DNA from: Paractinoplanes toevensis
GTDB taxonomy: Bacteria; Actinomycetota; Actinomycetes; Mycobacteriales; Micromonosporaceae
Assembly: GCF_018332695.1 (NCBI RefSeq)
Contig: NZ_BOQN01000064.1
Location: 1-64,000, forward strand
DNA: 64,000 nt
Reading direction: 5' to 3'
A program made the translations under genes and the position numbers. Positions 5,318 to 60,619 of this stretch are shown here, piece after piece. The notes below the pieces were generated by a model. The model ran no database searches. It was not told the origin of the DNA and was given only the letters and a program-made list of their open reading frames with translations. Positions within the stretch are counted from its first letter, which is position 1. Every line of letters begins with the position of its first letter.

Positions 5318-6226
5318 ATGACGGACGTGATTGTGGTGGGCGGCGGCGTGATCGGCCTGACCGCGGCCATCCGCCTGCTGGAACGCGGGCACACCGTGAC
5401 CGTGTGGTCGGCCGACGATCCGCTGGACACCGTGTCGGCGGTGGCGGCCGCGGCCTGGTACCCGACCCGCATCGACGAGAACCCGCAGGTCGCGACGTGG
5501 GCGGCGGCCACCTACCGGGAGTTCCGGCGCCAGCTCGAGGCCGGCGTGCCGGGGCTGCTGCTGCGGCCGACCCGCAACCTGCTCCGCGAGCCGATCCGGG
5601 AACTGCCCTGGTGGGCGGGGGCGGTCGACGGCGTTCAGCTGCGCGACGGCTCCCACCCGTACGCGCAGGAACTGCACTTCCTGGCTCCGCTCGCCGAGAT
5701 GGACGTCTATCTCGGCTGGCTGGCCGGCCGGGTCGAGGAGGCCGGCGGCCGATTCGAGCGGCGGCGGGTGCGCACCCTGGCCGACGCCGAGGCGGACGTG
5801 GTCGTGAACGCGACCGGGCTGGCCGCCCGCGAGCTGGCCGGCGATCCGGCGGTGCATCCGGCGCGCGGGCACATCGTGCTGGTCGAGAACCCGGGCATCA
5901 GCGGCGCGGTGCGGGATTCGGCGGGTGGCACCTACGTGCATCCGCGGTCGCGCGACGTGGTGCTGGGCGGCACGTTCGAGGTGGGGCGGGGCGATTTCGC
6001 GCCGGATCCGGCGGAGGCGGCGGCCATCGTCGAACGCTGCGTCGCGCTGGTGCCGGAGCTGGCCGGCGCGAAGGTCCTCGGCGAGCGGATCGGCCTGCGG
6101 CCGTCCCGCCACGGTGGGCCGCGGGTCGAGGCGTGCGGAAAGATCATTCACGCGTACGGGCATGGCGGCGCCGGTATGACGCTGTCCTGGGGTTGCGCCG
6201 ACGAGATCGCCGACCTGGCCGGGTAG
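5318..6226 (+). CDS. FAD-dependent D-amino-acid oxidase
   Basis: A 302-aa flavoprotein that should oxidise D-amino acids to 2-oxo acids, ammonia and hydrogen peroxide. The N-terminal dinucleotide-binding loop is GGGVIG (residues 8-13) with LTAA after it. The C-terminal DAO signature YGHGGAGMTLSWG lies at about residues 280-292. The substrate-carboxylate Arg expected in the GLRPxR motif is present (about R261). The length is a little short of the 320-345 aa usual for the family but all key motifs are there. It is divergent from a LysR regulator. A glycine oxidase or other DAO-fold activity is possible; the C-terminal signature favours true D-amino-acid oxidase. Confidence 0.88.
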   Translation: MTDVIVVGGGVIGLTAAIRLLERGHTVTVWSADDPLDTVSAVAAAAWYPTRIDENPQVATWAAATYREFRRQLEAGVPGLLLRPTRNLLREPIRELPWWAGAVDGVQLRDGSHPYAQELHFLAPLAEMDVYLGWLAGRVEEAGGRFERRRVRTLADAEADVVVNATGLAARELAGDPAVHPARGHIVLVENPGISGAVRDSAGGTYVHPRSRDVVLGGTFEVGRGDFAPDPAEAAAIVERCVALVPELAGAKVLGERIGLRPSRHGGPRVEACGKIIHAYGHGGAGMTLSWGCADEIADLAG

Positions 6227-6283
6227 AGCGCGGCGGCCGATTCCCGCCAGACTTCGGGTGGCGCGGGCGCGAGGATCGAGGGC

Positions 6284-6745
6284 ATGAGTTTTGTTGTCTC
6301 GCCAATCCCGCCCGCCTGGCTGGAAACCGCCCGCCGCGACCGTGTCGACGACGCCGGAGACCACTTCGAACCGTTCACCGCCGACGAGGCCGGCGCGCCG
6401 CTGCGGTGCTGCCTGCGCGACGCCGAGGCCGGTGAGCGGCTGGCCCTGGTCGCCTACCGGCCGGCCGGGACGGCCGGTGCCTACCGCGAGATCGGCCCGG
6501 TCTTCGTGCACGCCGGCCCGTGCGACGGCTACCGGGAGCCCGGCGACTACCCGGCCGGGTTCCGCGATCGCCGGCAGGTGCTGCGCGCCTACGACCTGGC
6601 CGGGCGGATCGCCGACGCGATCCTGGTCGAGGGGTCCGGCGCCGAGGCCGGCATCGGGCAACTGCTGGGCCGCCCGGACGTGGCCACCGTGCACAGCCGC
6701 AACGTGCTGTACGGCTGCTACATGTTCGCGGTCGACCGCGCCTAG
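6284..6745 (+). CDS. DUF1203 domain-containing protein
   Basis: A 153-aa protein matching DUF1203 along its length. It has the conserved CLRDAEAGERLALVAYRP segment, a following region containing GPVFVHAGPC and the C-terminal VHSRNVLYGCYMF block. DUF1203 proteins are small, cytoplasmic and of unknown function. The gene stands alone in the same direction as the oxidase, 57 bp after it, with no overlap. Confidence 0.8.
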   Translation: MSFVVSPIPPAWLETARRDRVDDAGDHFEPFTADEAGAPLRCCLRDAEAGERLALVAYRPAGTAGAYREIGPVFVHAGPCDGYREPGDYPAGFRDRRQVLRAYDLAGRIADAILVEGSGAEAGIGQLLGRPDVATVHSRNVLYGCYMFAVDRA

Positions 6746-6814
6746 CCTGGCCCTGGCAGTCCTACGAAAACCGGGCGACTGCCTGACCGGCGACCGGCCC
6801 GCCACGATCGGAAC

Positions 6815-7753
6815 ATGACAAATACCGTTCTGATCACCGGACCGACCCGGGGCCTCGGCCGCGCCGCCACCCTCGCCATGGCGGGCCGCCCGCCCGCCGA
6901 CCGCCCCGACCTGCTGCTGGTGGGCCGGGCCGGGAAAGCGCTGGCGGAGGTGGCCGCCGAGGCCCGCGCACGCGGTGCGACGGTGCACGAGATCGGCGCC
7001 GACCTGTCCCGGCTAGCCGACGTGCGGGCCGCCGCGGTCACCGTGCGGGATCTGCTGGACACCGGGGCGGTGCGGCCGCTGGGTGCGCTGATCGCCAACG
7101 CCGGGGCCATGTCGACCGACACCCGCACCGCGTCGGCCGACGGCTTCGAGCTGACGTTCGCCGTCAACTACCTCGCGCACGCCCAGCTCATCGGGGATCT
7201 GCTCGGCTCGTTCGGCTCGCGCGGCCGGATCGTGCTGCTCGGCTCGAACACCTACCACGCCAACTTCTGGCGGCGGCTGCTGAGCGTGCCCGAGGCGCAG
7301 TGGCGTGACCCGGTGGATATCGCCCGGCCGGCGACCGGCGCGGCGAACCCGGGCTTCAAGTCCGGCGGCGTCGCCTACTCGAACGCGAAGCTGGCGATCC
7401 TCTACTACGCCCACGAACTGCAGCGGCACGCCGGCGCCGGGATCAACGTCGCGGTGTACGAGCCGGGCTGGATGCCCGGCACCGCGCTCAGCCGGGGCGC
7501 CCCGGAGTTCGCCCAGGCGATGGGCCGTGGCCTGGGCCGGCTGCCGGGGGTGGCCACCCCGGAGCGGTCCGGCCCGATCCTGGCCTCGGTGGCGCTCGAC
7601 GACCGGTGGGCTCACCTGCGCGACGGCGCGTTCGTGGTGCGCGACCGGGTGCAGCAGGTCCGGCCGGTGGCCCATGACCGCGAGCGCGAGCGGCGCCTGT
7701 GGGCCGCCACCGCCGAACTGCTGAGCGGGAGCGCCGCTCGGCGCCAGGGGTGA
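6815..7753 (+). CDS. short-chain dehydrogenase/reductase
   Basis: A 312-aa NAD(P)-binding SDR. The cofactor loop is TGPTRGLG (residues 8-15), a variant of TGxxxGxG. The NAG motif appears as ANAGAM, the catalytic Ser lies in LLGSNTY and the YxxxK pair is Y188/K192. The C-terminal part resembles the retinol dehydrogenase/protochlorophyllide reductase-like subgroup, which is longer than classical SDRs. The substrate cannot be predicted. Its stop is 1 nt from the stop of the convergent Gfo/Idh gene. Confidence 0.87.
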   Translation: MTNTVLITGPTRGLGRAATLAMAGRPPADRPDLLLVGRAGKALAEVAAEARARGATVHEIGADLSRLADVRAAAVTVRDLLDTGAVRPLGALIANAGAMSTDTRTASADGFELTFAVNYLAHAQLIGDLLGSFGSRGRIVLLGSNTYHANFWRRLLSVPEAQWRDPVDIARPATGAANPGFKSGGVAYSNAKLAILYYAHELQRHAGAGINVAVYEPGWMPGTALSRGAPEFAQAMGRGLGRLPGVATPERSGPILASVALDDRWAHLRDGAFVVRDRVQQVRPVAHDRERERRLWAATAELLSGSAARRQG

Positions 7754-49403: not shown

Positions 49404-52058
49404 TCAGCAGGCCGGAAGGTCGGCCAGTTCGTCCCCGCCCTCGAGGTTGAGCCACGCCCACGGGATGTAGTTCTTGCCGCTGTAGTTGACCTGCACCCAC
49501 CAGGTGCTCTTCTTCTCGCTGTTGTAGATGTACGCGTACACCTCTTCGCCGGACTTCTTGCAGTACGCCTGCAGGCGGGTGCCCGGTTTCGCCCAGCCGG
49601 TCTGCTTGTCGTTGTCCTGCTGGGTGACGCTGAAGATCTCGTTGCCGTTGCGACCCGTCACGTCCTTGTCGCAATACGTAGCGGTGTCCCCGTTCTCGCC
49701 GTTGTTGCAGGTGGCGATGCCGTACCGGTAGTCGGTCGTGGATTTGTTGGTCGCGGTGGCCGAGCCGGCGGCGTTCTTCGCGGTGATCGTGAACGTGTAG
49801 GCCGTGCCGCCGGTCAGCTTCGAGACCGACAGGCTGCTGCAACTGCCGGACGCCGAGCCGCCACCACCGGTGGAGGCCACCGAGCAGCTGGCCTTGCCGC
49901 CACCCTGGTCGACCGTGAACGAGATCTTCGCGGTGTTGACCCCCGGGTCCACCCCGGTGATCGTCACCTTCGGCGCGGAGACGGTCTTGGCGGTGGCGGT
50001 GCCCGGCTGACTCTCGCCGGCCTCGTTGACCGCCCGCACCTCGACGGAGACGGTCTCGCCGGCCCCGAACCCGGTCAGCGTCACGGCCGTGCCGCCGGTG
50101 ACGTCGGTCGTCTTCCCGCCGGCCGTCACCACGTACTTGCTGATGGGGCGCCCGTTGTCGGCCGGCGCCTGCCAGGCGACCGTGACCGCGCCGGCCGTCT
50201 CGGCCACCGTGGCCGCCTCGACGCCGTCCGGCTCGGCCGGGGTGGTGAAGGGCGTGACGCTGCCGCTGACCGGCGACGCCTTCGACCCGGCACCCCGCTC
50301 GTTGATCGACACGACGGTGAAGGCGTACTGCTTGCCGTACTCCAGCTGGCCCGCCGGAATCGTCAGGGACGTCCCGGTGGCGTCGCCGATCGGCGCGCTG
50401 CCGCCCTCGGAGATCGCGGTCACCGTGTACCGCTTGATCTCCAGGCCCTGCCCGTTGGCCGCCGGCCAGCTGACCACCACGGTGCCGTCCGGCTTCGCCT
50501 CGGCGGTGGCCGCGGTCGGCGCGTCCGGAACTTCGGCGGTCGGCTTGACGGCGTTACTCGTACGCGTCGGGCCGTCGCCCTTCTTGTTCACGGCATGCAC
50601 CGCGAACTGGTATGTCTCCCCGTTGGTCAGCTCGGTGACGGTCAGCGAACGCTGGTCGGCACCGACCTGGAAGACCTTGCCCGCACCCTCCACCACGTAG
50701 CGCGTGATGGGTGCGTTGTTGTCGGCGGCCGCCTGCCAGGTGACCCTGGCCTCGGCGTTGCCGGCCGCGGCCCGCACGTTGCGCGGCGCCCCCGGCTTGG
50801 ACTGCACCGGCTTCTTCGGTTTCGGCGGCGGGGGCGGCGGATCGTCCGCCTTGACCGGCGGCGGGTCACCACCGAGCACGTCGTCGGCGTACTTGTCGAC
50901 GGTGCGCACCGCGTGGTTGTCGTCGACGACCCGGGCCGTGGACGAACCCGGTGCGTTGATGAACAGGTAGCCCTCGCGCACGTCCAGCTCGAGCGAGCCG
51001 CCCGGTTTCCGGAACGTGATGTCCTTCTGCGCCTTACCCGTGGAGTCGAAGACGTGCACCCGGCCGGTCTCGGAGTCGGCCACGTAGAAGTAGCCCTCCC
51101 AAGCCACCGCCGGCTGCAGCTCATCGCCACTGCCCGGAACCGTGAAGTCGGCGCGGACGCCCTGCTCACCGACCACATAGACGTGCCGCGAGTCGGTCAC
51201 GGTGACCGGCACGGACTGCCCGTCGGTGCGCGGCGCCAGCGAACCGGGGCCGGGCAGCGGGAGCGTGTGCTTCACCGGCTCGGCCTGGTCGCGCACGGTG
51301 AACAGCGCGTTGGTGGTGCGGTCGAGCACGGCGACCCCGTCGTCCAGCGTGGACAACGTGAGGTCATGGCTCGCGGCGGCAACGGCTTCCGACCGTACGA
51401 TGGAAGGACCTGCCGCCGAATCACTCCCGGGCGAGTCGGACGGGAGCGCCGCAGGCGCGATCGCGGTGATCGTGCCTTCGCTGGGCGCCGCGATCCACAG
51501 CTTGCCCTTGCCGTCGAAGACGCCGCCGGTGATGCCCGGCGGGAAGCGCAGCGGCGACCCGATCGGCCCGAGCGAGCGCGGATCGAGCTGCTGCACCTGG
51601 CCCTGCACGGTGTCCACGACGAAGGCGGAGTCCTCGTCGAGCGCGACCCGCACGCCCAGGCCAGGGCTGGACGAAGAGTTCCAGAACTCCTGCAGAGTGG
51701 TCAGATCCATCGAGCCGATCGCGCCCGTGTTCACATCCCGCAGAATCACGAACCGATCGGTCTGCGACACCTCGAGCGCGTGCCCGCGGGCGTTGGGCAC
51801 ATCGACGCGAGTGTCCACCTTGGCAGTCACCCCGTTGATGCGCGCGACCTCGCCCTTGGACCGAGACCACACCCAGGACGCCGCATCGAAGCTGGCCACG
51901 GCCTGATCGGCCGAGCCCAGCCCGAGCACGGTCAACCCGAGCCCACCGGCGAGACTGAGGACGGTCCCCATCGTGACGAGATAGCCGCGACTGCGCCACC
52001 GACGTCGCTGCGCGGTCACCCGCACACCCTCCGTGCTGGCGCTATCTGCGCTGGTCAC
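49404..52058 (-). CDS. secreted/anchored FN3-repeat protein with propeller-like N-terminus
   Basis: An 884-aa envelope protein. After a basic start (TAQRRRWRSRG) one membrane helix (about residues 28-48) anchors it. Residues about 55-395 form NHL/propeller-like beta repeats (DRFVILRDVNTGAIGSMDL, GVFDGKGKLWIA). A Pro-rich linker PPPPPPKPKKP precedes three clear FN3 domains (from about 420, 512 and 608) and a fourth FN3-like domain. The Cys-containing C-terminal domain resembles an SH3-like fold. The start GTG 52058 has GGGGGAGGA upstream. It lies head to tail before the MoxR operon (13 bp) and may be its substrate. Confidence 0.85.
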   Translation of the reverse strand: MTSADSASTEGVRVTAQRRRWRSRGYLVTMGTVLSLAGGLGLTVLGLGSADQAVASFDAASWVWSRSKGEVARINGVTAKVDTRVDVPNARGHALEVSQTDRFVILRDVNTGAIGSMDLTTLQEFWNSSSSPGLGVRVALDEDSAFVVDTVQGQVQQLDPRSLGPIGSPLRFPPGITGGVFDGKGKLWIAAPSEGTITAIAPAALPSDSPGSDSAAGPSIVRSEAVAAASHDLTLSTLDDGVAVLDRTTNALFTVRDQAEPVKHTLPLPGPGSLAPRTDGQSVPVTVTDSRHVYVVGEQGVRADFTVPGSGDELQPAVAWEGYFYVADSETGRVHVFDSTGKAQKDITFRKPGGSLELDVREGYLFINAPGSSTARVVDDNHAVRTVDKYADDVLGGDPPPVKADDPPPPPPKPKKPVQSKPGAPRNVRAAAGNAEARVTWQAAADNNAPITRYVVEGAGKVFQVGADQRSLTVTELTNGETYQFAVHAVNKKGDGPTRTSNAVKPTAEVPDAPTAATAEAKPDGTVVVSWPAANGQGLEIKRYTVTAISEGGSAPIGDATGTSLTIPAGQLEYGKQYAFTVVSINERGAGSKASPVSGSVTPFTTPAEPDGVEAATVAETAGAVTVAWQAPADNGRPISKYVVTAGGKTTDVTGGTAVTLTGFGAGETVSVEVRAVNEAGESQPGTATAKTVSAPKVTITGVDPGVNTAKISFTVDQGGGKASCSVASTGGGGSASGSCSSLSVSKLTGGTAYTFTITAKNAAGSATATNKSTTDYRYGIATCNNGENGDTATYCDKDVTGRNGNEIFSVTQQDNDKQTGWAKPGTRLQAYCKKSGEEVYAYIYNSEKKSTWWVQVNYSGKNYIPWAWLNLEGGDELADLPAC

Positions 52059-52183
52059 TAACCCAATCCTCCCCCTTTGAAGGACCCCCTCCGCAAGGAC
52101 GAAGGCCACTATAGGGGGAGGTGGATACGCGCCGATACCCGGAAGTCACGGTTGTGGATAACTCTGATCGCCGAGCGTGATCA

Positions 52184-53875
52184 TCATCGGTTGGTACAAG
52201 CCTGCTGCGACGTGGCGAACTTGTTGTTCCGGTAGACCGCGACCACCGCGAAGCAGTAGTTCAGCGTAGGGTTGAGCGCACTGATCTCATAGGACGTCTG
52301 CCCAGGTCCGAGCGTGGTGACCGGCTTGAGCTGCTCCCCCGGATGCCCCATCGCGACGAGGAACGAGACGGTGCCCTGAGTCGGGTCCTGCCAGCTGACC
52401 ACGATGCGCGCGCCGCTGTCCTTCAAGACCACTCCGGTGGGTGGCGAGCCGCCGAGAGTTGGCACATCCTCGTTGTCACCGCCGTCACCCGACCGGTTGG
52501 CAAGAACAAAAACCAGCGCGGCCACGGCGATCACGGCAGCCAGAACCGCGGCGATCGCCGCAAAGATCCCCAAACCCCGTTTTTGGTACGAGAGTGAAGC
52601 GCCGACCGGCTCCGTTGTGTACGGGGGTGGTGGTCCGTTGTGTCCCCACCCCGGCCCCGGCGCGTCAGGGTAGATGATCGCCGGCTGAACCTCGTAGCGT
52701 TGCTGCGGCACCGGGTAGGGGGCTGATTCATTCCACGGCGCCAACGCTGTGGTTTCCTCGACCGGGCGGATCGCACGAGTGTCGTGCGGCGCCTGGTCAT
52801 GCGGACCGACCCAGATCTGCGCGTTCTCGGCGTCGGGCGGCTGAATCGTGCCGTTGTTCAAGCCTGCCCGGCCGCCGGTGCCGCTGCTTTCCCAGTTGGT
52901 CGCTCTCGTTTCGCTGTAGTCGGCGCTTTCACCGGGGCCTGCGCTGGTGTCGCTTTCCCAGGCACCCGAGTTTGTGTTGCCGCTCTGCCCGAGGCCCGCG
53001 TCGCCGCCTCTCCAGTCACCCTCGCCCGCTTCACCGACCTCCCGGCCAATAGCGCCGCCTTCGCCGGGGCCTGTGCCGGTGCCGCGTTCGGCGGTGCCCG
53101 CGCCGGTGCCGCGTTCGGCGGGGCTCGCGGCGGCACCGCGTTCGCCGGGGCCGAGGTCGCGTGGGTCGCGTTCGCCGGGGCCGAGCTCGCGTGGGTCGCG
53201 GGGTGCCGGAACGGTCGGGTTGATCACCGGGAAGGTGGTGGTCGGGTCGTTCGTGCCGTGGGCGGCCTGACTCGGGTTCGGGTCGGGGTTGAGGCGGAAT
53301 GCGGTGGTCGGCTCCTCGCTGGGCGCCGACTGTGGGACGTTTTCCGGGCCGCTCGAGGTGAACCGGGGCTGCCACGGGGCGACGCTGGGATCGGACGACA
53401 GCGGAGGCTCGGTTTGCGACCCTCGTACACCAGCTTGTGGATCTTGCCCGAGATAAGCCCGCGCCCGCGCGACCGCCCAGTGCCCACCGCCCAGCGCGGC
53501 GGGCCCGAGCTCAGCCACCCGGACGAAAGCCTTGCGCGCCTCATGGCGGTTGCCGAGCTCCTCGGCAACCACCCCGATGTCGTGCGAGATCTCCAACATC
53601 AGCGCGTCAGAATCCCCGAGCCGCCAGAGCCCCGCCGCATAGGCTTCTTCCAGCACCCGCCGAGCAGCGACCGGATCGTCCGCCCTCTGCAAAACTGTGC
53701 CGAGCAGATAGGCAGTGCGAAGAACGTCCGGATCATCCTCAGAGAGGTTGACTTTCCCCAGCTCCACCGCACGCTCGAGCACGGCCCGCGCGCCCGCAAG
53801 ATCCCCCGAGTCGGCGAGGGCCTGCGCACGCTGCCAAGCGGGAGTGAGCGGTGAGGGCTGAGACACGCCAGCCAT
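52184..53875 (-). CDS. TPR-FN3 single-span membrane protein
   Basis: A 563-aa protein. Residues about 10-150 contain TPR-like helices (AWQRAQALADSGDLAGARAVL, HEARKAFVRVAELG). A long disordered region with PGERDPRDLGPGERG and ERGTG repeats runs to about residue 430. One span (437-459) is followed by an exported C-terminal FN3 domain (about 475-560) with a Cys pair. It is thus cytoplasmic TPR outside-linked to FN3. It lies upstream of the FN3 and MoxR genes in the same direction (125 bp away). Role unknown, perhaps envelope assembly. Confidence 0.82.
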   Translation of the reverse strand: MAGVSQPSPLTPAWQRAQALADSGDLAGARAVLERAVELGKVNLSEDDPDVLRTAYLLGTVLQRADDPVAARRVLEEAYAAGLWRLGDSDALMLEISHDIGVVAEELGNRHEARKAFVRVAELGPAALGGGHWAVARARAYLGQDPQAGVRGSQTEPPLSSDPSVAPWQPRFTSSGPENVPQSAPSEEPTTAFRLNPDPNPSQAAHGTNDPTTTFPVINPTVPAPRDPRELGPGERDPRDLGPGERGAAASPAERGTGAGTAERGTGTGPGEGGAIGREVGEAGEGDWRGGDAGLGQSGNTNSGAWESDTSAGPGESADYSETRATNWESSGTGGRAGLNNGTIQPPDAENAQIWVGPHDQAPHDTRAIRPVEETTALAPWNESAPYPVPQQRYEVQPAIIYPDAPGPGWGHNGPPPPYTTEPVGASLSYQKRGLGIFAAIAAVLAAVIAVAALVFVLANRSGDGGDNEDVPTLGGSPPTGVVLKDSGARIVVSWQDPTQGTVSFLVAMGHPGEQLKPVTTLGPGQTSYEISALNPTLNYCFAVVAVYRNNKFATSQQACTNR

Positions 53876-54063: not shown

Positions 54064-54149
54064 GGTCCGGGTGGCGGAATGGCAGACGCGCTAGCTTGAG
54101 GTGCTAGTGCCCTTTATCGGGCGTGGGGGTTCAAGTCCCCCTCCGGACA
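54064..54149 (+). tRNA. tRNA-Leu, anticodon GAG
   Basis: An 86-nt class II tRNA. Acceptor arms GTCCGGG and TCCGGAC pair (with one G-U), followed by discriminator A. The anticodon stem CTAGC/GCTAG closes the loop TTGAGGT, giving anticodon GAG (reads CTC and CTT). A long variable arm (GTGCCCTTTATCGGGCGT) and T arm GGGGG-TTCAAGT-CCCCC are present. CCA is not encoded. An integrated element begins just downstream, so this tRNA is the likely attachment site. Confidence 0.95.
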
Positions 54150-54183
54150 CACATTTGTCGCACTTGTGCATCAAACGACGTAC

Positions 54184-54247
54184 GTGTGGTCAAGCGCGCT
54201 TGACCACACAAATCGGTCATCCTCGGTATGGTCAAAATCGGTCATCC
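54184..54247. repeat. 26-bp perfect palindrome followed by 13-bp direct repeats
   Basis: A perfect palindrome (13-nt arms, GTGTGGTCAAGCG and its complement) covers 54184-54209. Directly next to it AAATCGGTCATCC occurs at 54210-54222 and again exactly at 54235-54247, with a 25-bp period. The set lies between the tRNA and the first element gene, where attL arm-type recombinase sites would be expected. It may equally be the operator of the AbrB-like gene. No gene is seen in 54150-54257. Confidence 0.75.
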
Positions 54248-54257
54248 GAGGTCGGCG

Positions 54258-54752
54258 GTGGTTGCCGTGACCGACCTCTCTCTACCCACTGTTGTGCCGC
54301 CGGTGATACTCACCGATCGGTCAGAGCGGCTGCGGTGGACACCGGCAGCGCCTATGTCCGGGCGGCCTCCCCTGCCGTTGATGGCCCTGGCCGAAAAACG
54401 TTCCGGTTCCGCCGTGTACGGCATATGCACACTCGACCCAGGCGGCAGGATCGCCGACCGGTCGGTCATGGCGGCGCTGGACTGGGATCCTGGTAAGCGG
54501 CTCGACATCCGTGTGAGTCGGGGCCTGATTGCGGTGTTCGCGGATGGCCGGGGCATTTTCCGGATCACGACGCATCGTTTGCTGCATCTTCCGGTTGCTG
54601 CTCGGCGGTGGTGTGCGCTGGCCGCAGGTGATCGGGTCCTGCTGGCGGCCTATCCTCAAGGTGGCCTGCTGGTGGTACATCCGCCTGGGGTCCTGGACGC
54701 GGTGGTGGACCAAGTCCACGCCGACGCGCTCGGGGGTGGCCGCGATGGCTGA
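54258..54752 (+). CDS. AbrB/SpoVT-like double-hairpin protein, recombinase partner (copy 1)
   Basis: A 164-aa protein. Its second half contains two AbrB-type swapped-hairpin units. The first is at about GRIADRSVMAALDWDPGKRL. The second is at HRLLHLPVAARRWCALAAGD, followed by RVLLAAYPQGGLLVVHPPG, where the LPVAARRW...AGDRVLL pattern is typical. The N-terminal 60 residues are Pro-rich. I chose GTG 54258, with GAGG 6 nt upstream; ATG 54228 is an alternative. The last 8 nt overlap the recombinase start (ATGGCTGA). A paralogue with the same overlap lies inverted at 56917-57381. It may regulate or assist recombination. Confidence 0.7.
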   Translation: MVAVTDLSLPTVVPPVILTDRSERLRWTPAAPMSGRPPLPLMALAEKRSGSAVYGICTLDPGGRIADRSVMAALDWDPGKRLDIRVSRGLIAVFADGRGIFRITTHRLLHLPVAARRWCALAAGDRVLLAAYPQGGLLVVHPPGVLDAVVDQVHADALGGGRDG

Positions 54753-55779
54753 GCCGACCGTCGATCAGGCCGGAGTGCAGGCGGCCCGGCTGCTGCTGGA
54801 GCGGATGGGTATCTCCCCCAACGATCTGGTGGCAGGCGCGCCGGTGCGCCCCGAGGCTCCGACCTTCGCCGACTACGTGCCGGTGGTGGCCGCATCTATC
54901 TCACCAGGACTGTTGCGCGCGTACGGGACGTACTGGGATCGGGCCGTCAAGCGTTGGGGTGAGCGCCGGATTGATCAGGTCAGTGCGTCAGACATCCGAA
55001 CCCTGATCGCCGACATCAAGGCGAACCGGGTGCAACGACGTAACGGCCGGGGCGGGCGTAGCGCGGAGGAGCACACGATTGCCGCGTTGCGGTGCCTGTA
55101 TCGGCGGGCGACAGCGGACGGGTTCATGAGCGAGTTGGAGAACCCGGCTTTAAAGGTCGCGAAGCCTAAACGGCTGCCCACGACACGGCGCGCGTTGCCG
55201 GACAGCCGGCTGGCGGAGATCAACGAGGTGGCGACGAGCAGTGGTGACGATCCGGCGCTGGACGGTCTGTTGATCCGATTGCACGTGGAGACGGCATGCC
55301 GGCGGGGTGGCGCGTTGGCGTTGCGGCCGATGGATCTCGACGCTGAGCAGTGTCTGATCTTGTTGCGGGAGAAGGGCGGTACGTTTCGATGGCAGCCGGT
55401 CTCGCCGACGCTGATGCGGCATCTGCAGGCGCACGCCGTCGAGCGGGGTGCCGCACAGAGCGGGCAGTTGTTGCGGTACCGCAATCGGCAGCCGATCACC
55501 TATCGGCGCTACGACCATCTGTGGGTGCGGATCGGGGCCAGGCTGCCGTGGGTGGCCGCGCAGCAGATCAGCGTCCACTGGCTGCGGCACACGACGCTCA
55601 CCTGGGTGGAGCGCAACTTCGGCTATGCGGTGGCGCGGGGCTACGCGGGGCATGCGGAGACGACCAGCGGTGACGTCGGCGCGACCGCAGGGTACGTGCG
55701 GGCGAGCATGAACGAGCTGGCGGACGCGTTGTCGGCGTTGACGGGCGAGCCGCATCCGCTCGCATCAGTCCGGGCATAG
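54745..55779 (+). CDS. tyrosine recombinase/integrase (copy 1)
   Basis: A 344-aa tyrosine recombinase. A SAM-like N-terminal DNA-binding domain lies at about residues 38-135 (TFADYVPVVAASISPGLLRA). In the catalytic domain, the first Arg lies in ETACRRGGALAL, the HxxR box in SVHWLRHTTLTW, the second His in GYAGH and the nucleophile Tyr in AGYVRAS. All R-H-R-H-Y positions are present, so it should be active. It starts at ATG 54745 inside the AbrB-like gene. It is about half identical by eye to the opposing copy. It points away from the tRNA. Confidence 0.87.
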   Translation: MAEPTVDQAGVQAARLLLERMGISPNDLVAGAPVRPEAPTFADYVPVVAASISPGLLRAYGTYWDRAVKRWGERRIDQVSASDIRTLIADIKANRVQRRNGRGGRSAEEHTIAALRCLYRRATADGFMSELENPALKVAKPKRLPTTRRALPDSRLAEINEVATSSGDDPALDGLLIRLHVETACRRGGALALRPMDLDAEQCLILLREKGGTFRWQPVSPTLMRHLQAHAVERGAAQSGQLLRYRNRQPITYRRYDHLWVRIGARLPWVAAQQISVHWLRHTTLTWVERNFGYAVARGYAGHAETTSGDVGATAGYVRASMNELADALSALTGEPHPLASVRA

Positions 55780-55859
55780 TCAACGCGAGGCGGTGCCTGT
55801 CCGCTCGTGTGGGCGGTGGCGGCTGGGCGCGGGTGGGATGACCCGGGTCCAGCCGGTCC

Positions 55860-56924
55860 TCATGCCGGTGGCTGTGGCGGGGCCACGGTGGAAGCGGCGA
55901 GTGGGTGTGGTTCACCGGTGAGTTCGGCGAGGGCTTGCGCGATCTCCTGGAGATCCGCTCTGACGTAGGTGGCTGTGACGCCGATCGTGCGGCCGCTGTT
56001 GTGGCCGGCGAATCCTCGGGCGACAGCATAGCCGCAATGGCGTTCAACCCAGGTCAGTGTGGTGTGCCTGATCCAGTGGATGCTGATCTGCTGCGCGGCC
56101 ACCCAGGACAGGTGCTTGCCGAGACGTTGCCAGAGGTAGTCGTAGCGCCGGTAGGTGATCGGTTTGCCGTTGCGGTAACGCAAGATCTGGTCGGTGGGCT
56201 CTTCGCCGCCTCGTTCGTCGAAGTGGTCGAGCAGCGCCTGCATCAAGGTCGGTGTGACCGGCTGCCAGCGCACCGTTTCGCCTTTCTCATGCAACTGGAT
56301 CAGGCACTGCTCGACGTCGAGGTCGGCTCGGGTGAGGGCCAGTGCCCCGCCGCGCCGGCAGGCCGTTTCGATGTGCAGGCGCAGGATGAGCGTGTCGAGG
56401 TCGGGATCGTCGCCGGTTGTGCCGGCGACGTAGATGATCTCGGCGAGTCGATTGTCGGGAAGGGCGCGGCGGGTGCTGTCGAGTCGGCGCGGTTTAGCGA
56501 CCCGGGCCGCGGGGTTGTCGGCCTGGGCGATGAGCTGGTCGGCGACGGCGTACTGGTAGAGGCAGCGGATCGCCGAGATGAGATGTTCGGCGGCGCTGCG
56601 CCCACCGCGGGCATTGCGCCGGCGGACGACGTTGCGCTTGACGTGCTCGGCGAGTTGCCTAATCTCTGACGGGGTGGGTTCGTCGAGACGGCGGTGACCC
56701 CATTGCTCGCTGATCTTGCGCCAGTAGGTGCTGTAGAGCCGCCGGGACCCCTCCGGGACGGCTGCCGACACCTTCTTGATGTACTCGTCGAAGGTGGGCA
56801 TCGTGACCGGCTGCGTCGTTTGGGCCAGCAGCTGTTCAGGGGTCACGCGAAGGCGACGAAGGAGAAGGCGCAGGGCATCAAGTTCCACGCCTTGCTGGCT
56901 TGTTTCGATCGGCAGCTCACTCAT
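55860..56924 (-). CDS. tyrosine recombinase/integrase (copy 2)
   Basis: A 354-aa tyrosine recombinase, closely related to copy 1 along its whole length. Shared blocks include TRRALPD-RLAEI, HIETACRRGGALAL, WVAAQQISIHW and TYVRADLQEIAQAL. Catalytic residues are complete: Arg in ACRRGG, HxxR in IHWIRHTT, His in GFAGH and Tyr in TYVRA. The start ATG 56922-56924 overlaps the second AbrB-like gene by 8 nt. It converges tail to tail on copy 1 with only 80 bp between the stops (55780-55859, no gene or clear hairpin). Two active paralogues facing each other is unusual. Confidence 0.87.
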   Translation of the reverse strand: MSELPIETSQQGVELDALRLLLRRLRVTPEQLLAQTTQPVTMPTFDEYIKKVSAAVPEGSRRLYSTYWRKISEQWGHRRLDEPTPSEIRQLAEHVKRNVVRRRNARGGRSAAEHLISAIRCLYQYAVADQLIAQADNPAARVAKPRRLDSTRRALPDNRLAEIIYVAGTTGDDPDLDTLILRLHIETACRRGGALALTRADLDVEQCLIQLHEKGETVRWQPVTPTLMQALLDHFDERGGEEPTDQILRYRNGKPITYRRYDYLWQRLGKHLSWVAAQQISIHWIRHTTLTWVERHCGYAVARGFAGHNSGRTIGVTATYVRADLQEIAQALAELTGEPHPLAASTVAPPQPPA

Positions 56925-57381
56925 TGAGGAAACCAAAACGCTCGAGGGTCATCTCGTCGATGACGGCCGGAGTGCAGATAATGATCAGGTTGCGATCAGG
57001 GTAGGAAGCGACCAGCAGCGGCTCGCCGTGGTTGATGCCGCACCGACGCCGGACAGCAGCAGGCAGGAGCAGGAAGCCCTCAGCAGTGATGGCTTCCTTA
57101 CCGTTAGGCGCGGCGCGTATCAGTGGCGATCCGTTGTCGGTAAGGATGGTGAGGGCTTGGCCGGCACACCACCCGAGCACGCGAAGGGGGTGGCGGCTGG
57201 CGAGCCGCCCGTGCCGATTGCACCGGGTCAGGGTGTAACGGGCTGAGGTGAGCCGCTTCGGTCGCTGCTGCAATGAGGGTATGGGCAGCGCGGCAGTTGC
57301 GAGTGGGCCGCCCGCCGGAGAGGCGGCGGCCGTCGGGCGGGCTACGGGCGCTGCGGGCGCGGATGATTCGATCGCATCCAC
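56917..57381 (-). CDS. AbrB/SpoVT-like double-hairpin protein, recombinase partner (copy 2)
   Basis: A 154-aa paralogue of the protein at 54258-54752. Two hairpin units are seen: CNRHGRLASRHPLRVLGWCAG, then GFLLLPAAVRRRCGINHGEP, followed by LLVASYPDRNLIIICTPAV. A Pro/Ala-rich N-terminus precedes them. I chose GTG 57381, because AAGGGGAG lies 6 nt upstream and the length then matches copy 1. An open frame continues further upstream to 57657 into AT-rich DNA with no family-like sequence. It overlaps the recombinase gene by 8 nt (ATGAGTGA), as in copy 1. Confidence 0.7.
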   Translation of the reverse strand: MDAIESSAPAAPVARPTAAASPAGGPLATAALPIPSLQQRPKRLTSARYTLTRCNRHGRLASRHPLRVLGWCAGQALTILTDNGSPLIRAAPNGKEAITAEGFLLLPAAVRRRCGINHGEPLLVASYPDRNLIIICTPAVIDEMTLERFGFLNE

Positions 57382-58114
57382 GATCGACTCCCCTTTGCGT
57401 CGGGAGGCCGGCGGTGGCGGCGTTGGCTCGACGGATTGATGGCCCACATCCGTATGAGACCCGTTGCGGATGTCCCGGGGAAGTTGGCTGCGATGGTCCC
57501 TGACAGTCCCGCGTGGTCCCGGCGAAAGTCGGGGACGGTCGACCTCAAAGGCTATTCCTTCGTCCAGAAATCGGAGAATCCGAGTTCGCCAGAGTTGCTC
57601 GATTCCCATTTTCGGTATCGGAGTACTCACGCTGTTTAGCGTATTCATTTTAGCCAATTAATGGCGCATGACTCAACTGATGTCGGGGGTTGCACTTACC
57701 GCAGGCGTGAAAAGTTGCCATTGATGACACTGCGGTTCACTTGGCGAATTGCGCGACAATTTTGAATTCCTCACGTCATTCGTGGTCTTCGCGTTGTCCG
57801 GTCCTGACGAGTCACTCTCTATGCAGCTGCTTTTTGACAGTTCACCAGGGTCCGTCGTTTGAGACAGAGGCACACGAGTCAGTGTCGTCGGATAGTGCGG
57901 GACCACGAAGGACCACGGGAGACCACTGGCGCGCTTCGCCGTGGACGTGAAAGCTCGTCCCTGTTGGAGGAAAGCGAGTTGTTGCCGCCCTGGCCGAGGA
58001 GCAGCAGGGCGTGCGACCGGGAAGCAGATTGCGCGCCCTTACTGCACTAAACGACAGCGGGGTTCTGCCTCCCAATGAAGAATTCCTCAACTCGGTGACG
58101 GTTGTGGGGACCGC
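57382..58114. other. AT-richer divergent intergenic region with phased GACCAC repeats
   Basis: This 733-bp gap separates the second AbrB-recombinase pair from the primase gene. The part 57580-57840 is markedly AT-richer than anything else in the window and includes a TTGACA at 57834-57839 without a convincing -10. GACCAC occurs three times with exact 10-bp spacing (57901, 57911 and 57921), that is on one face of the helix; its complement GTGGTC is at 57513-57518. No coding sequence is supported here. Confidence 0.6.
57901..57930 (+). repeat. three 10-bp phased iterons GACCACnnnn
   Basis: GACCACGAAG, GACCACGGGA and GACCACTGGC follow one another without gaps. The GACCAC core also forms the outer part of the 26-bp palindrome upstream of the first cassette (GACCACAC and GTGTGGTC). 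A shared DNA-binding protein of the element, such as an AbrB-like protein, is a natural candidate. Confidence 0.7.
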
Positions 58115-60619
58115 TTGGAATCACAAATTGATATGCGGGCAGCCGCTCTCGCGTGGTATGACGCCGGTTGTAGCGTCGTGCCCATACGTGCTGATGGGAG
58201 CAAGGCGCCGCTAGTGCCGTGGCGCCGTTACCAGACCACGCGGCCCAATCGTGAGCAGGTACGGAATTGGTTCACCGGCAGCCCGCCGGGCCTGGCGGTG
58301 CTGTGCGGTGCCGTCTCCGGTGGGCTGGAGATGCTGGAGTTAGAGGGACGTGCGGTAAAGGAAGGCCTTGCCAGCCGACTGGTAGATCTTGCCACTGCGG
58401 CTGGGTTGCATGAGCTGTGGCAGCGGGTCGCCGTTGATGGGTACGCCGAACGCACGCCGTCGGGGGGTGTTCATTTGCTCTACCGAGTGGTGGACGCCCC
58501 AGTGGGGCGGAACCAGAAGCTGGCGCGCCGCCCTGCCAACGAGGCGGAACTCGTGGCTGATCCACAGGACAAGATCAAGGTTCTGGCAGAGACGCGGGGC
58601 GAGGGTGGTTACACGATCGTGGCGCCGTCGCATGGCACGGTGCATGAGTCCGGCCGGCCGTGGGAGGCCCTTGGCAGCTCGGCGCCCGAGAGTATTCCGG
58701 CGATCACGGCGTCGGAACGGGCGGCGTTGTTCTCCCTGGTTCAGTCGTTGGACGCGATGCCTCCGTTGCCGCAGCAGCCGGGACCGTCACTGCGGCCGGC
58801 TGGCTTGAGCTTGTCGCCTGGTGATGACTTCGAGCGCCGTACCGACTGGGCGGATCTCCTGGAACCGGCCGGCTGGGTGCTGGTGCACCAGATCGGACGG
58901 ACCCGCTATTGGCGACGCCCAGGAAAGGCCGTTGGTGTGTCGGCGACGACGGGACGGGCGGCGGAGCGTGACCGTTTGTTCGTGTTCAGCTCGAGCACCG
59001 TGTTCGCACCGGAGTCGCCGATTACGAAGTTCCACGCCTTCGCGGTCTTGCATCATGGCGGTGATCACGTCGCGGCCGCGCGGGCGCTGGGGCAAGCGGG
59101 GTCTAGCCGGCGGGCCGGGGAAGCCTCTGTCTCTGCAGGAAGGCAGGACGGCAATCCGCAGGCTTACGAGGCCGAGGAAGCGGGGGGTACGGACTCGGGC
59201 ATTGCGGTCCAGGTCGTGCAGGAGGCGTTGCCTCCCGTGGCGGCCTGGGGGCCGACCGAGGATGGCTTGGCCCGGGCGCTGGTCGCGTACCACGGTCACG
59301 AGTTGCGGTTTTGCCCGCAGCGCAGCAAGTGGCTGGTTTGGGACGGTTGCCGGTGGGCGTGGGACGACGCCGAGCGGCATCGTGAGTTCGTCCGGGCGAT
59401 GGCCCGGGATCTGCCGCAGACCGGCCGGTGGCGCCGGTTCCGCGGGATGGCCTTGTCTGCGGGCGGGGTATCCGGCGTGGTGCGGCTGGCGCGATCGGAT
59501 CCAGCGGTCACGGTGGCGGTGACCGCGCTGGACGCTCAGCCTTATCAGCTGAACACTCGCGGCGGTGTCGTCGATTTGCGCACGGGTGCGGTTCATGCTT
59601 CGGATCCGGCGCTGTTGCATACCCGCTGTGCGGGGGCGGCGCCGGATTTCGAGCGCCGGTCGGAGGTGTTCGATCGGTTCCTGGCGGATACATTCGGCGA
59701 TGACCTCGCCCTGGTGACCTATGTGCAGCAGCTGTTGGGGGTCTCGGCGATCGGCGCGGTGCTGGAGCAAGTGTTGCCGTTCGCGGTGGGGCCGGGCGCG
59801 AACGGTAAGAGCACGCTGCTGGAGGCCGCCATGCATGCGTTGGGCCGCGACGACGGCGGCTACGCGATCGCGGCGTCGTCGGAGATGCTGATGGTCCGCC
59901 AGCACGCGGAACACCCGGCGGAACTGGCCCAGCTCGCCGGTGCGCGGCTGGTGGTGTGTGCGGAGCTCGACGAGGGTCAGAAGTTCGCCGAAGCCAGGGT
60001 GAAGCAGCTGACCGGTCGGGATTCGATTAATGCCCGGTTCATGCGTGGCAATCCGTTCACCTATCTGCCCAGTCACACGTTGTGGCTGTTGGGGAATCAT
60101 CTGCCGGCGGCGCGGGCGGGCGGGCCGGCGTTCTGGCGGCGGATCAGGGTGCTGCCGTTCACGCGGGTGGTGCCGGACAGCCGGCAGGACCGTCGTTTGG
60201 GTGAGCATCTCGCGGCCGACGCGCCGGCGATCCTGGCATGGATGATCGCCGGCGCCGCCGCCTACCACGTGGCGGGCCTGCTGCAGCCGGATGCTGTCAC
60301 GTCGGCGACCGAGGCGTATGCGTGGGAGTCGGACACCGTGGGGCGCTTCGTCGAGGAAATGTGCCGCCGAGTTCCCGAGGATGCCGGGCGGGTCGCCACG
60401 ACGGTGCTGCGTGACGCGTACGAGCAGTGGTGTGAGGGGGCGGGTGAGAGACCGGTGTCGGCGAAACGGCTGACGCAGGATCTTCGGCGGCTCGGGGTAG
60501 GCGAGGCCCGGGGTGGTAAGGGCCGCCGCTTCTATACCGCGCTGGTGCTCGGCGACAGTGATGGCGGGATTGTGCAGCCGGCGTTGGTCGACCGCAGCGC
60601 TGCCCGGGGTGACGGGTGA
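58115..60619 (+). CDS. phage/plasmid P4-type primase-helicase with Prim-Pol domain
   Basis: An 834-aa replication protein. The N-terminal Prim-Pol (AEP) domain (about residues 8-200) has AWYDAGCSVVPIRADGSKAP, the acidic pair as LELEGR (Glu-x-Glu where Asp-x-Asp is usual) and the SGGVHLLYR His motif. A D5_N region precedes the SF3 helicase core. Walker A is GPGANGKS (559-566), Walker B ARLVVCAELDEG, and motif C THTLWLLGNH. A winged-helix tail ends it. TTG 58115 has GGGGA upstream; ATG 58133 is an alternative. It could replicate the excised element. Confidence 0.88.
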   Translation: MESQIDMRAAALAWYDAGCSVVPIRADGSKAPLVPWRRYQTTRPNREQVRNWFTGSPPGLAVLCGAVSGGLEMLELEGRAVKEGLASRLVDLATAAGLHELWQRVAVDGYAERTPSGGVHLLYRVVDAPVGRNQKLARRPANEAELVADPQDKIKVLAETRGEGGYTIVAPSHGTVHESGRPWEALGSSAPESIPAITASERAALFSLVQSLDAMPPLPQQPGPSLRPAGLSLSPGDDFERRTDWADLLEPAGWVLVHQIGRTRYWRRPGKAVGVSATTGRAAERDRLFVFSSSTVFAPESPITKFHAFAVLHHGGDHVAAARALGQAGSSRRAGEASVSAGRQDGNPQAYEAEEAGGTDSGIAVQVVQEALPPVAAWGPTEDGLARALVAYHGHELRFCPQRSKWLVWDGCRWAWDDAERHREFVRAMARDLPQTGRWRRFRGMALSAGGVSGVVRLARSDPAVTVAVTALDAQPYQLNTRGGVVDLRTGAVHASDPALLHTRCAGAAPDFERRSEVFDRFLADTFGDDLALVTYVQQLLGVSAIGAVLEQVLPFAVGPGANGKSTLLEAAMHALGRDDGGYAIAASSEMLMVRQHAEHPAELAQLAGARLVVCAELDEGQKFAEARVKQLTGRDSINARFMRGNPFTYLPSHTLWLLGNHLPAARAGGPAFWRRIRVLPFTRVVPDSRQDRRLGEHLAADAPAILAWMIAGAAAYHVAGLLQPDAVTSATEAYAWESDTVGRFVEEMCRRVPEDAGRVATTVLRDAYEQWCEGAGERPVSAKRLTQDLRRLGVGEARGGKGRRFYTALVLGDSDGGIVQPALVDRSAARGDG

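Follow-up and report, generated by a model that had tools for sequence, protein, structure and literature searches.

The window analysed here, 64,000 nt of DNA from Paractinoplanes toevensis, contains two copies of a two-gene unit between 54 and 57 kb. Each unit consists of a gene encoding a small tandem-AbrB protein that overlaps, by 8 nt, a gene encoding a tyrosine recombinase. Unit A is on the forward strand and unit B on the reverse strand. The units are convergent and the ends of the two recombinase genes are separated by 80 bp (positions 55780–55859). The module begins ~115 bp after tRNA-Leu(GAG), counting to the probable start of unit A. Coordinates are positions in the window and are collected in Table 1. 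The tail-to-tail pair had been described correctly in the initial annotation, made without mention of the upstream tRNA gene. Most likely, the four genes are a real and recurrent paired-recombinase integration module, and the element that carries them is a variant of the tRNA-integrating elements.

The recombinases and their small partner proteins

Recombinases A and B share 59% identity over 320 aa (E 2e-132), compared with 33% over 113 aa for the small proteins (E 9e-17). With such E values the paralogy is far beyond chance and, as initially described, the copies have clearly diverged. Both recombinases match PF00589 above the Pfam cut-off. The catalytic R, K, H-x-x-R, H and Y positions, which we take to be those of the tyrosine recombinase motif, are invariant in 11 of 11 aligned recombinases, both window copies included. 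The earlier statement that neither copy has lost its catalytic residues thus stands. Among the matches to the structural model of recombinase B are XerA, XerD and XerH; the best, in Foldseek, are the lambda and Tn1549 integrases. In the recombinase model, a short helical stretch lies ahead of the core-binding domain. Our reading of the model secondary structure is that a lambda-type arm-binding domain is probably absent, although the best Foldseek matches are lambda integrase chains.

Three sequence comparisons were made for each recombinase. For recombinase A, dN was 0.11–0.22 and dS was 0.83–1.07. The equivalent values for recombinase B were 0.16–0.17 and 0.85–1.43. These rates point to purifying selection on both recombinases. 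The AbrB genes have changed more rapidly (dN/dS about 0.26–0.44). In PHROGs, both recombinases fall into family 38262 and both small proteins into family 31174; the function of each family is listed as unknown. Hence, such proteins are already present in a phage protein set. Recombinase B had no match at E 1e-5 among phage records in INPHARED or plasmid records in PLSDB. Assignment to a defence system was rejected, the best PADLOC match having an E value of 0.017.

Neither small protein matches a Pfam family, and that of unit A has no NCBIfam match either. TIGR01439 matches the unit B protein only, with an E value of 0.001, below the family cut-off. The AlphaFold model of the unit A protein (mean pLDDT 88) contains two AbrB folds in one chain. 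The best matches to this model in the PDB are tandem-AbrB MraZ structures, with TM-scores of 0.57–0.60 by query length and about 10% identity. The AbrB assignment made initially is therefore borne out, by the model for unit A and by the below-cut-off sequence match for unit B.

Considering only recombinases that cover at least 300 model positions, a partner gene is found directly upstream in 48 of 56 cases. The start codon is overlapped in 47 of these 48. The 8 nt overlap, initially stressed as identical in the two units, is indeed present in both; in relatives the overlap is mostly 4 nt (37 of 48) and is 8 nt in 5 of 48. The association also holds when the small protein is taken as the starting point. 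Across the genus, at least 58 of 68 small-protein matches precede a recombinase, a lower bound since the comparison was with part of the recombinase match list plus one further locus. For the best 56 matches the figure is 53. The exceptions among these are G064 C40, G028 C60 (which ends 90 nt from the contig start) and G009 at 980755; the other seven exceptions of the 68 are weaker matches. On these counts we rejected a free-standing regulator. Comparison of sequences instead supports the earlier suggestion that the small protein is a dedicated partner of its recombinase. The accompanying suggestion of a directionality factor fared less well. Separate HTH_17-like genes lie near cassettes at four loci of three relatives (G058, on two contigs, G003 and G026). 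Three were scanned; two score above the Pfam cut-off and one just below. No such gene was found on the window contig, where 150 of 322 first-look candidates were scored. Thus, the role of directionality factor need not fall to the AbrB protein.

The attachment site in tRNA-Leu(GAG)

All 67 genomes of the genus have a match to tRNA-Leu(GAG). We tabulated 81 of 83 strong matches, those of G044 C29 and G038 being outside the table. At 25 of the 81 sites, a member of the window recombinase family, fragments included, occurs no more than 16 kb after the tRNA gene (several contigs end sooner). The first cassette is directed away from the tRNA at 13 of these sites, three of which belong to a divergent clade. 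At a further eight, a cassette, in some cases a fragment, faces the tRNA from a distance of 241–444 bp.

At the window locus, tRNA-Leu(GAG) adjoins the recombinase module, and the repeat of the tRNA expected at the far end of an element is seen in relatives. In G060 and G034, for example, the T-arm of the tRNA is repeated at a far end, 156.8 kb and 8.7 kb from the tRNA, respectively. For G060, where both ends are on one contig, the tRNA end (C1:234530) and the far end (C1:77730) have the same 28 nt. The core, TCCGGACAC/CTCGGACAC, also precedes A-type cassettes at loci lacking the tRNA, where its left arm is, for example, GTGTCGATC. The arms of the core in these attP-like sites are near-inverted repeats. 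Hence, attP probably has a core of this kind. One such site is on contig C130 of G000 (5434–7036, L056), where a second, lone A-type cassette has the core and no tRNA; it can be read as the junction of a tandem array or the end of another element.

The core in its tRNA context occurs once on the window contig. A mismatch search for attR returned 15 sites with 2–3 mismatches, compared with 2 for the reversed control. The candidate at C24:57675 was rejected; the right arm is kept but the flanks lack the T-arm.

The flank of the core contains further candidate sites. Of the flanks tested, 9 of 20 A/F-type and 10 of 10 B2-type ones have a GCA-N4-TGC sequence 10–11 nt beyond the core. A palindrome follows. 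In the A-type rows, 9 of 10 palindromes beat most shuffled sequences (0–8 of 200 as good), the Planosporangium row being the one that does not (190 of 200). All five F rows beat every shuffle, and four B2 rows are weaker (4–46 of 200 as good). The palindrome, whose arms vary between species without losing complementarity, could thus equally well be a terminator or hairpin or a protein binding site. Ahead of the unit A small gene are two direct repeats; by eye, GGTCA pairs resembling these are present in G003 and G042.

A different type of gene occupies the same position in G016 and G028 (L115 and L120). Directly after tRNA-Leu(GAG), these genomes have frames of 556–560 codons, on the opposite strand and ending at the tRNA, with the motif YGR(V/M)ST. 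By eye, the frames seem to encode serine recombinases, and the hotspot seems to be common to two unrelated recombinase types. Mycobacterial serine recombinases in a tRNA-Leu gene are described in excerpts of PMC3218068.

Table 1. Features of the module and its surroundings, with the basis for each assignment.
Feature	Position	Strand	Basis or comment
tRNA-Leu(GAG)	54065–54150	+	ARAGORN; 3' end is the attachment core, which recurs at far ends of related elements
att core TCCGGACAC (attL)	54142–54150	+	Comparison of att flanks
GCACTTGTGC, GCA-N4-TGC site 10–11 nt past core	54160–54169	+	Candidate arm or accessory site
26-nt palindrome of the element; probably a terminator/attenuator or an operator	54184–54209		0 of 200 shuffles as good
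Two direct repeats AAATCGGTCATCC.. ahead of small gene	54210–54252	+	Repeat search; candidate partner-protein sites
Small tandem-AbrB (MraZ-like) protein, unit A	54267–54752	+	Open frame from 54228; start by comparison
Tyrosine recombinase A	54745–55779	+	Pfam PF00589, PHROG 38262
Tyrosine recombinase B	55860–56924	-	PF00589, PHROG 38262; ATG at 56924, alternative start TTG 56936
Small tandem-AbrB protein, unit B	56917–57381	-	Open frame to 57657; start uncertain
Prim-Pol / D5 P4-type primase	58115–60619	+	PF09250, D5_N (Pfam), TIGR01613; adjoins unit B

The unit A small protein probably starts at GTG 54267, rather than at 54258, judging by the position of an ATG in G003 and G042. The primase gene adjoining unit B is the probable replication gene of the element. 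Primases that are 68–71% identical adjoin B-type cassettes, in the same relative order, in G058 C43 and G026. To the left of the tRNA are a gene for a protein with TPR and fn3 domains (52184–53875, reverse strand; Pfam) and one for a long protein (49404–52109, reverse strand) that is fn3-like by eye. Of 7 relatives tested, 5 also have the TPR gene on that side of the tRNA. In the region upstream of unit B, 57482–57522 and 57898–57932 show short, weak matches (80–83%), one of them inverted, to contig positions 68884–68924.

Recurrence and descent of the paired cassettes

Ten loci have an inward cassette beside att and a second recombinase, or fragment of one, within 10 kb. Eight of these pairs are convergent and two are co-directional. 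The convergent loci are the window, G042, G045, G006, G059, G058 (where B is truncated), Planosporangium and G097. The last belongs to another family within the order and has the same arrangement: tRNA-Leu(GAG), then AbrB-recombinase facing recombinase-AbrB, with ~1 kb between. The core 9-mer was not found between the genes in any of the seven convergent pairs scanned, and none is listed in the G097 gap. Since the layout recurs in relatives, chance pairing in one strain was rejected. The same pairing in related species means that the pair is probably a working unit and not an accident. Other arrangements exist. Two cassettes of G062 (L162 and L163) are directed away from a shared core with T-arm, the reverse of the window layout. 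Further elements, such as those of G034 and G044, have cassettes at opposite ends. Between the two cassettes of the 8.7 kb element of G034 (L067, 4039–9438) is a 1799-codon open frame, the start of which is kinase-like by eye.

We built a tree from 54 of 60 recombinase rows, those with an open frame of at least 290 aa. Cassette geometry follows clade. Clades A1 (support 99/90) and B1 (96/85) comprise the same five genomes: the window genome, G042, G003, G058 and G004. In two of these, G058 and G004, A lies on a different contig from B. Distances between A recombinases correlate with those between B recombinases in each set of assignable pairs: r=0.63 (n=7, p=0.017), 0.58 (n=9, p=0.009), 0.44 (n=11, p=0.007) and 0.43 (n=15, p=0.001). 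The assignable pairs include four with A and B on different contigs (G058, G004, G023 and G005) and four with partial A sequences (G042, G045, G029 and G034).

Across the class, 5 of 394 genomes match at E 1e-30, the window genome among them. At this threshold the recombinase family is therefore uncommon outside the genus. The matches include G097 and G354, at tRNA-Leu(GAG), and a distant relative in G407 (L201) beside tRNA-Ser(GGA), which suggests that the target has changed within the family. A single-protein search of IMG/VR found nothing; an alignment search found two loci, on two contigs. At one of these (L198, 7486–14771) an AbrB-recombinase unit faces a lone AbrB gene, with genes for a terminase large subunit and an SPP1-type portal downstream. 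Hence, a phage or prophage probably uses the AbrB-recombinase module too.

Interpretation and relation to known systems

We consider it probable, at about 60%, that the locus belongs to one integrative element, with two paralogous recombinases for one att site and a coupled accessory protein for each. The four genes would be the integration and excision module of an element with its recombination site in the 3' end of tRNA-Leu(GAG). The two recombinases, A and B, would be anciently diverged paralogues that have been retained as a pair, most likely for the same attachment site, and that may take part in one reaction. Translation of each would be coupled to that of a MraZ-like tandem-AbrB protein. 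The most likely targets of this protein are repeats next to the att core or ahead of its own gene, where its binding would help or regulate its recombinase.

Several observations weigh against this interpretation. The window element may still be mobile, yet its attR was found neither on the contig, which ends at 85371, nor by the mismatch search; the right end is not assembled. The layout is not uniform. Recurrence, which the initial annotation had proposed to check, is evident in the eight convergent pairs (in the genus, in Planosporangium and in another family), but the two other pairs among the ten loci, those of G003 and G049 (a fragment from the divergent clade), are co-directional. When all 16 neighbouring pairs no more than 10 kb apart are counted, fragments included, 8 are convergent, 5 co-directional (G003, G029, G034, G049 and G060) and 3 divergent (G062, twice, and G042 C66). 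This tally excludes G017, where two overlapping pieces derive from one gene, and has G097 added. Decay of one recombinase in relatives, also raised initially, is seen in 3 of 8 convergent pairs (A is broken in G042 and G045, and B in G058); both members are intact in the other five, and both recombinases are under purifying selection. G006 and G059 are counted as intact because B of each, despite one stop in the match from one search, has its model match in one open frame. G010, G009 and G037, assembled in 1–2 contigs each, have a single recombinase match. B2-type recombinases occur next to the tRNA with A absent, and no AbrB gene was detected for those of G012, G029 and G034. In the tree, support for the fork holding all A (80/83) and that holding all B (95/79) is not firm. 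The G059 and G006 pairs, and A of Planosporangium, fall outside these forks, so A and B are there named by position. Finally, identity of a flanking chromosomal gene (83% for G042, 80% for G003 and 72% for G058) ranks the nearest relatives as the A and B distances do. Hence, host descent could explain part of the correlation.

These observations bear on other explanations of the pair. Two independent elements, each with its own recombinase, could have stacked at one tRNA hotspot, the pair being a leftover of accretion. Tandem arrays do exist, as A cassettes with the core and without a tRNA occur in G003, G042 C82 and G000 C130, and the core lies between the two divergent cassettes of G062. B-type cassettes also face the tRNA directly in G034, G042 C81, G005, G026 and G022. 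We nevertheless regard stacking as quite unlikely: the eight convergent pairs have no core between their genes, the convergent order is found again in another genus and another family, the five genomes of clade A1 coincide with those of B1, and purifying selection acts on both recombinases. It is also doubtful, if a little less so, that the recombinases divide the labour, one with its partner integrating and the other excising or acting on attL and attR, with no mixed tetramer. Here, the different positions kept by A (beside att and directed inward) and B2 (facing att) would be accounted for, and convergent genes cannot share one transcript. However, both recombinases retain the catalytic residues, and there are genomes with a single cassette.

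The AbrB-like protein might instead be mainly a transcriptional autoregulator with no role in recombination. The titles of the matched PDB entries call MraZ a promoter-bound transcription factor, and the palindrome and GGTCA repeats are directly ahead of the unit A gene. Set against this are the near-universal overlap with the recombinase start codon and the proximity of the candidate sites to the att core; we think the idea somewhat unlikely. The initial annotation had also envisaged inversion or excision of 54.1–58.1 kb between outer sites. The opposite orientation of the G003 B cassette, relative to A, would fit an inversion switch. However, the only long inverted repeats are formed by the two recombinase genes (72–80% complementary), the sole other repeat is a 14-nt pair inside B, and the contig has one core with tRNA context. 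An inversion switch is thus most improbable, and excision of this segment between outer sites likewise finds no support.

A further reading is that A and B form a heteromeric integrase. Each would occupy one arm of the core, in a mixed tetramer. Each subunit would arrive with its own co-translated MraZ-like protein, bound to repeats next to the core in place of the arm-binding domain and host bending factors on which classical integrases rely. This proposal is tentative and, we judge, unlikely; the AbrB protein as a substitute for the arm-binding domain is likewise conjecture. If true, a heteromeric integrase would be a new architecture for site-specific integration, used across elements of Actinomycetes and at least one virus-like contig. 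Most tRNA-directed elements have one integrase and one directionality factor (see also Table 1 in the excerpts of PMC10214605). In this family of actinomycete elements, two paralogous recombinases are often retained, and the reading frame of each overlaps that of the MraZ-like protein to which it is tied. With such elements, the question of why two integrases might be required can be put to a clean test. The specific tRNA-Leu(GAG) target could be exploited as a tool for integrating DNA in rare actinomycetes.

The initial annotation knew of no described system with this layout. Our literature search also found no AbrB-coupled integrase pair, which is weak evidence as subscription literature was largely outside the search. 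Two kinds of element, the GInts and SEs discussed below, do depend on several tyrosine recombinases together with a small protein. Among the closest known systems are the actinomycete integrative and conjugative elements (AICEs), including pSAM2, SLP1, pMR2 and pACPL of Actinoplanes SE50/110 (excerpts of PMC3218068 and PMC3364876). According to the same excerpts, AICEs attach at tRNA 3' ends, have a tyrosine recombinase near att and, in some cases, a Prim-Pol gene. The window has such a replication gene, with its PF09250, D5_N and TIGR01613 matches. FtsK/SpoIIIE (PF01580) has 14 matches in the genome and none on the window contig, C64, whose assembly does not reach the right end of the element. 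In pACPL, unlike the window, int, xis and repSA are downstream of attP. Convergent paralogous recombinases with AbrB partners are not met in the excerpts on AICEs, and the word AbrB does not occur in that of PMC3218068. The AICE Fcci3390, described there, has two integrases, but these belong to two different sub-families and use two att pairs.

GInts, which carry ginABCD, are integrative islands whose movement needs several tyrosine recombinases and a small protein, and in this they resemble the window (excerpts of PMC5385486). Unlike the window, they have a single operon with three integrases and a putative helix-loop-helix protein, and Pseudomonas GInts are inserted in an ABC transporter gene. 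The words AbrB, convergent and tRNA are absent from that excerpted text. At the window locus there are two convergent recombinases with AbrB-like partners, in place of a ginABCD operon with three integrases and GinD. Strand-biased circularizing integrative elements (SEs; intA-tfp-intB-srap) and Tn554 (TnpA, TnpB and TnpC) similarly have two catalytic tyrosine recombinases and further proteins (excerpts of PMC10214605). These differ in being operons and in their hosts, Gammaproteobacteria for SEs and Staphylococcus or Enterococcus for Tn554, and the excerpts do not contain the word AbrB. The window recombinases converge directly, without an intervening third gene; no search was made for Tfp and Srap.

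XerC and XerD are, like A and B, two paralogous tyrosine recombinases of similar size, and the recombinase B model matches Xer proteins. Xer acts at dif in the chromosome. The window recombinases are instead in a mobile element, with heteromeric action only a candidate, and the best fold matches of recombinase B are to the integrases of lambda and Tn1549. Similarly, MraZ has two AbrB folds per chain, as does the small protein, with the TM-scores noted above. MraZ is coupled to the mra operon. By contrast, the small protein has about 10% identity to MraZ and is coupled to recombinases, and it may represent a new class of recombination accessory protein.

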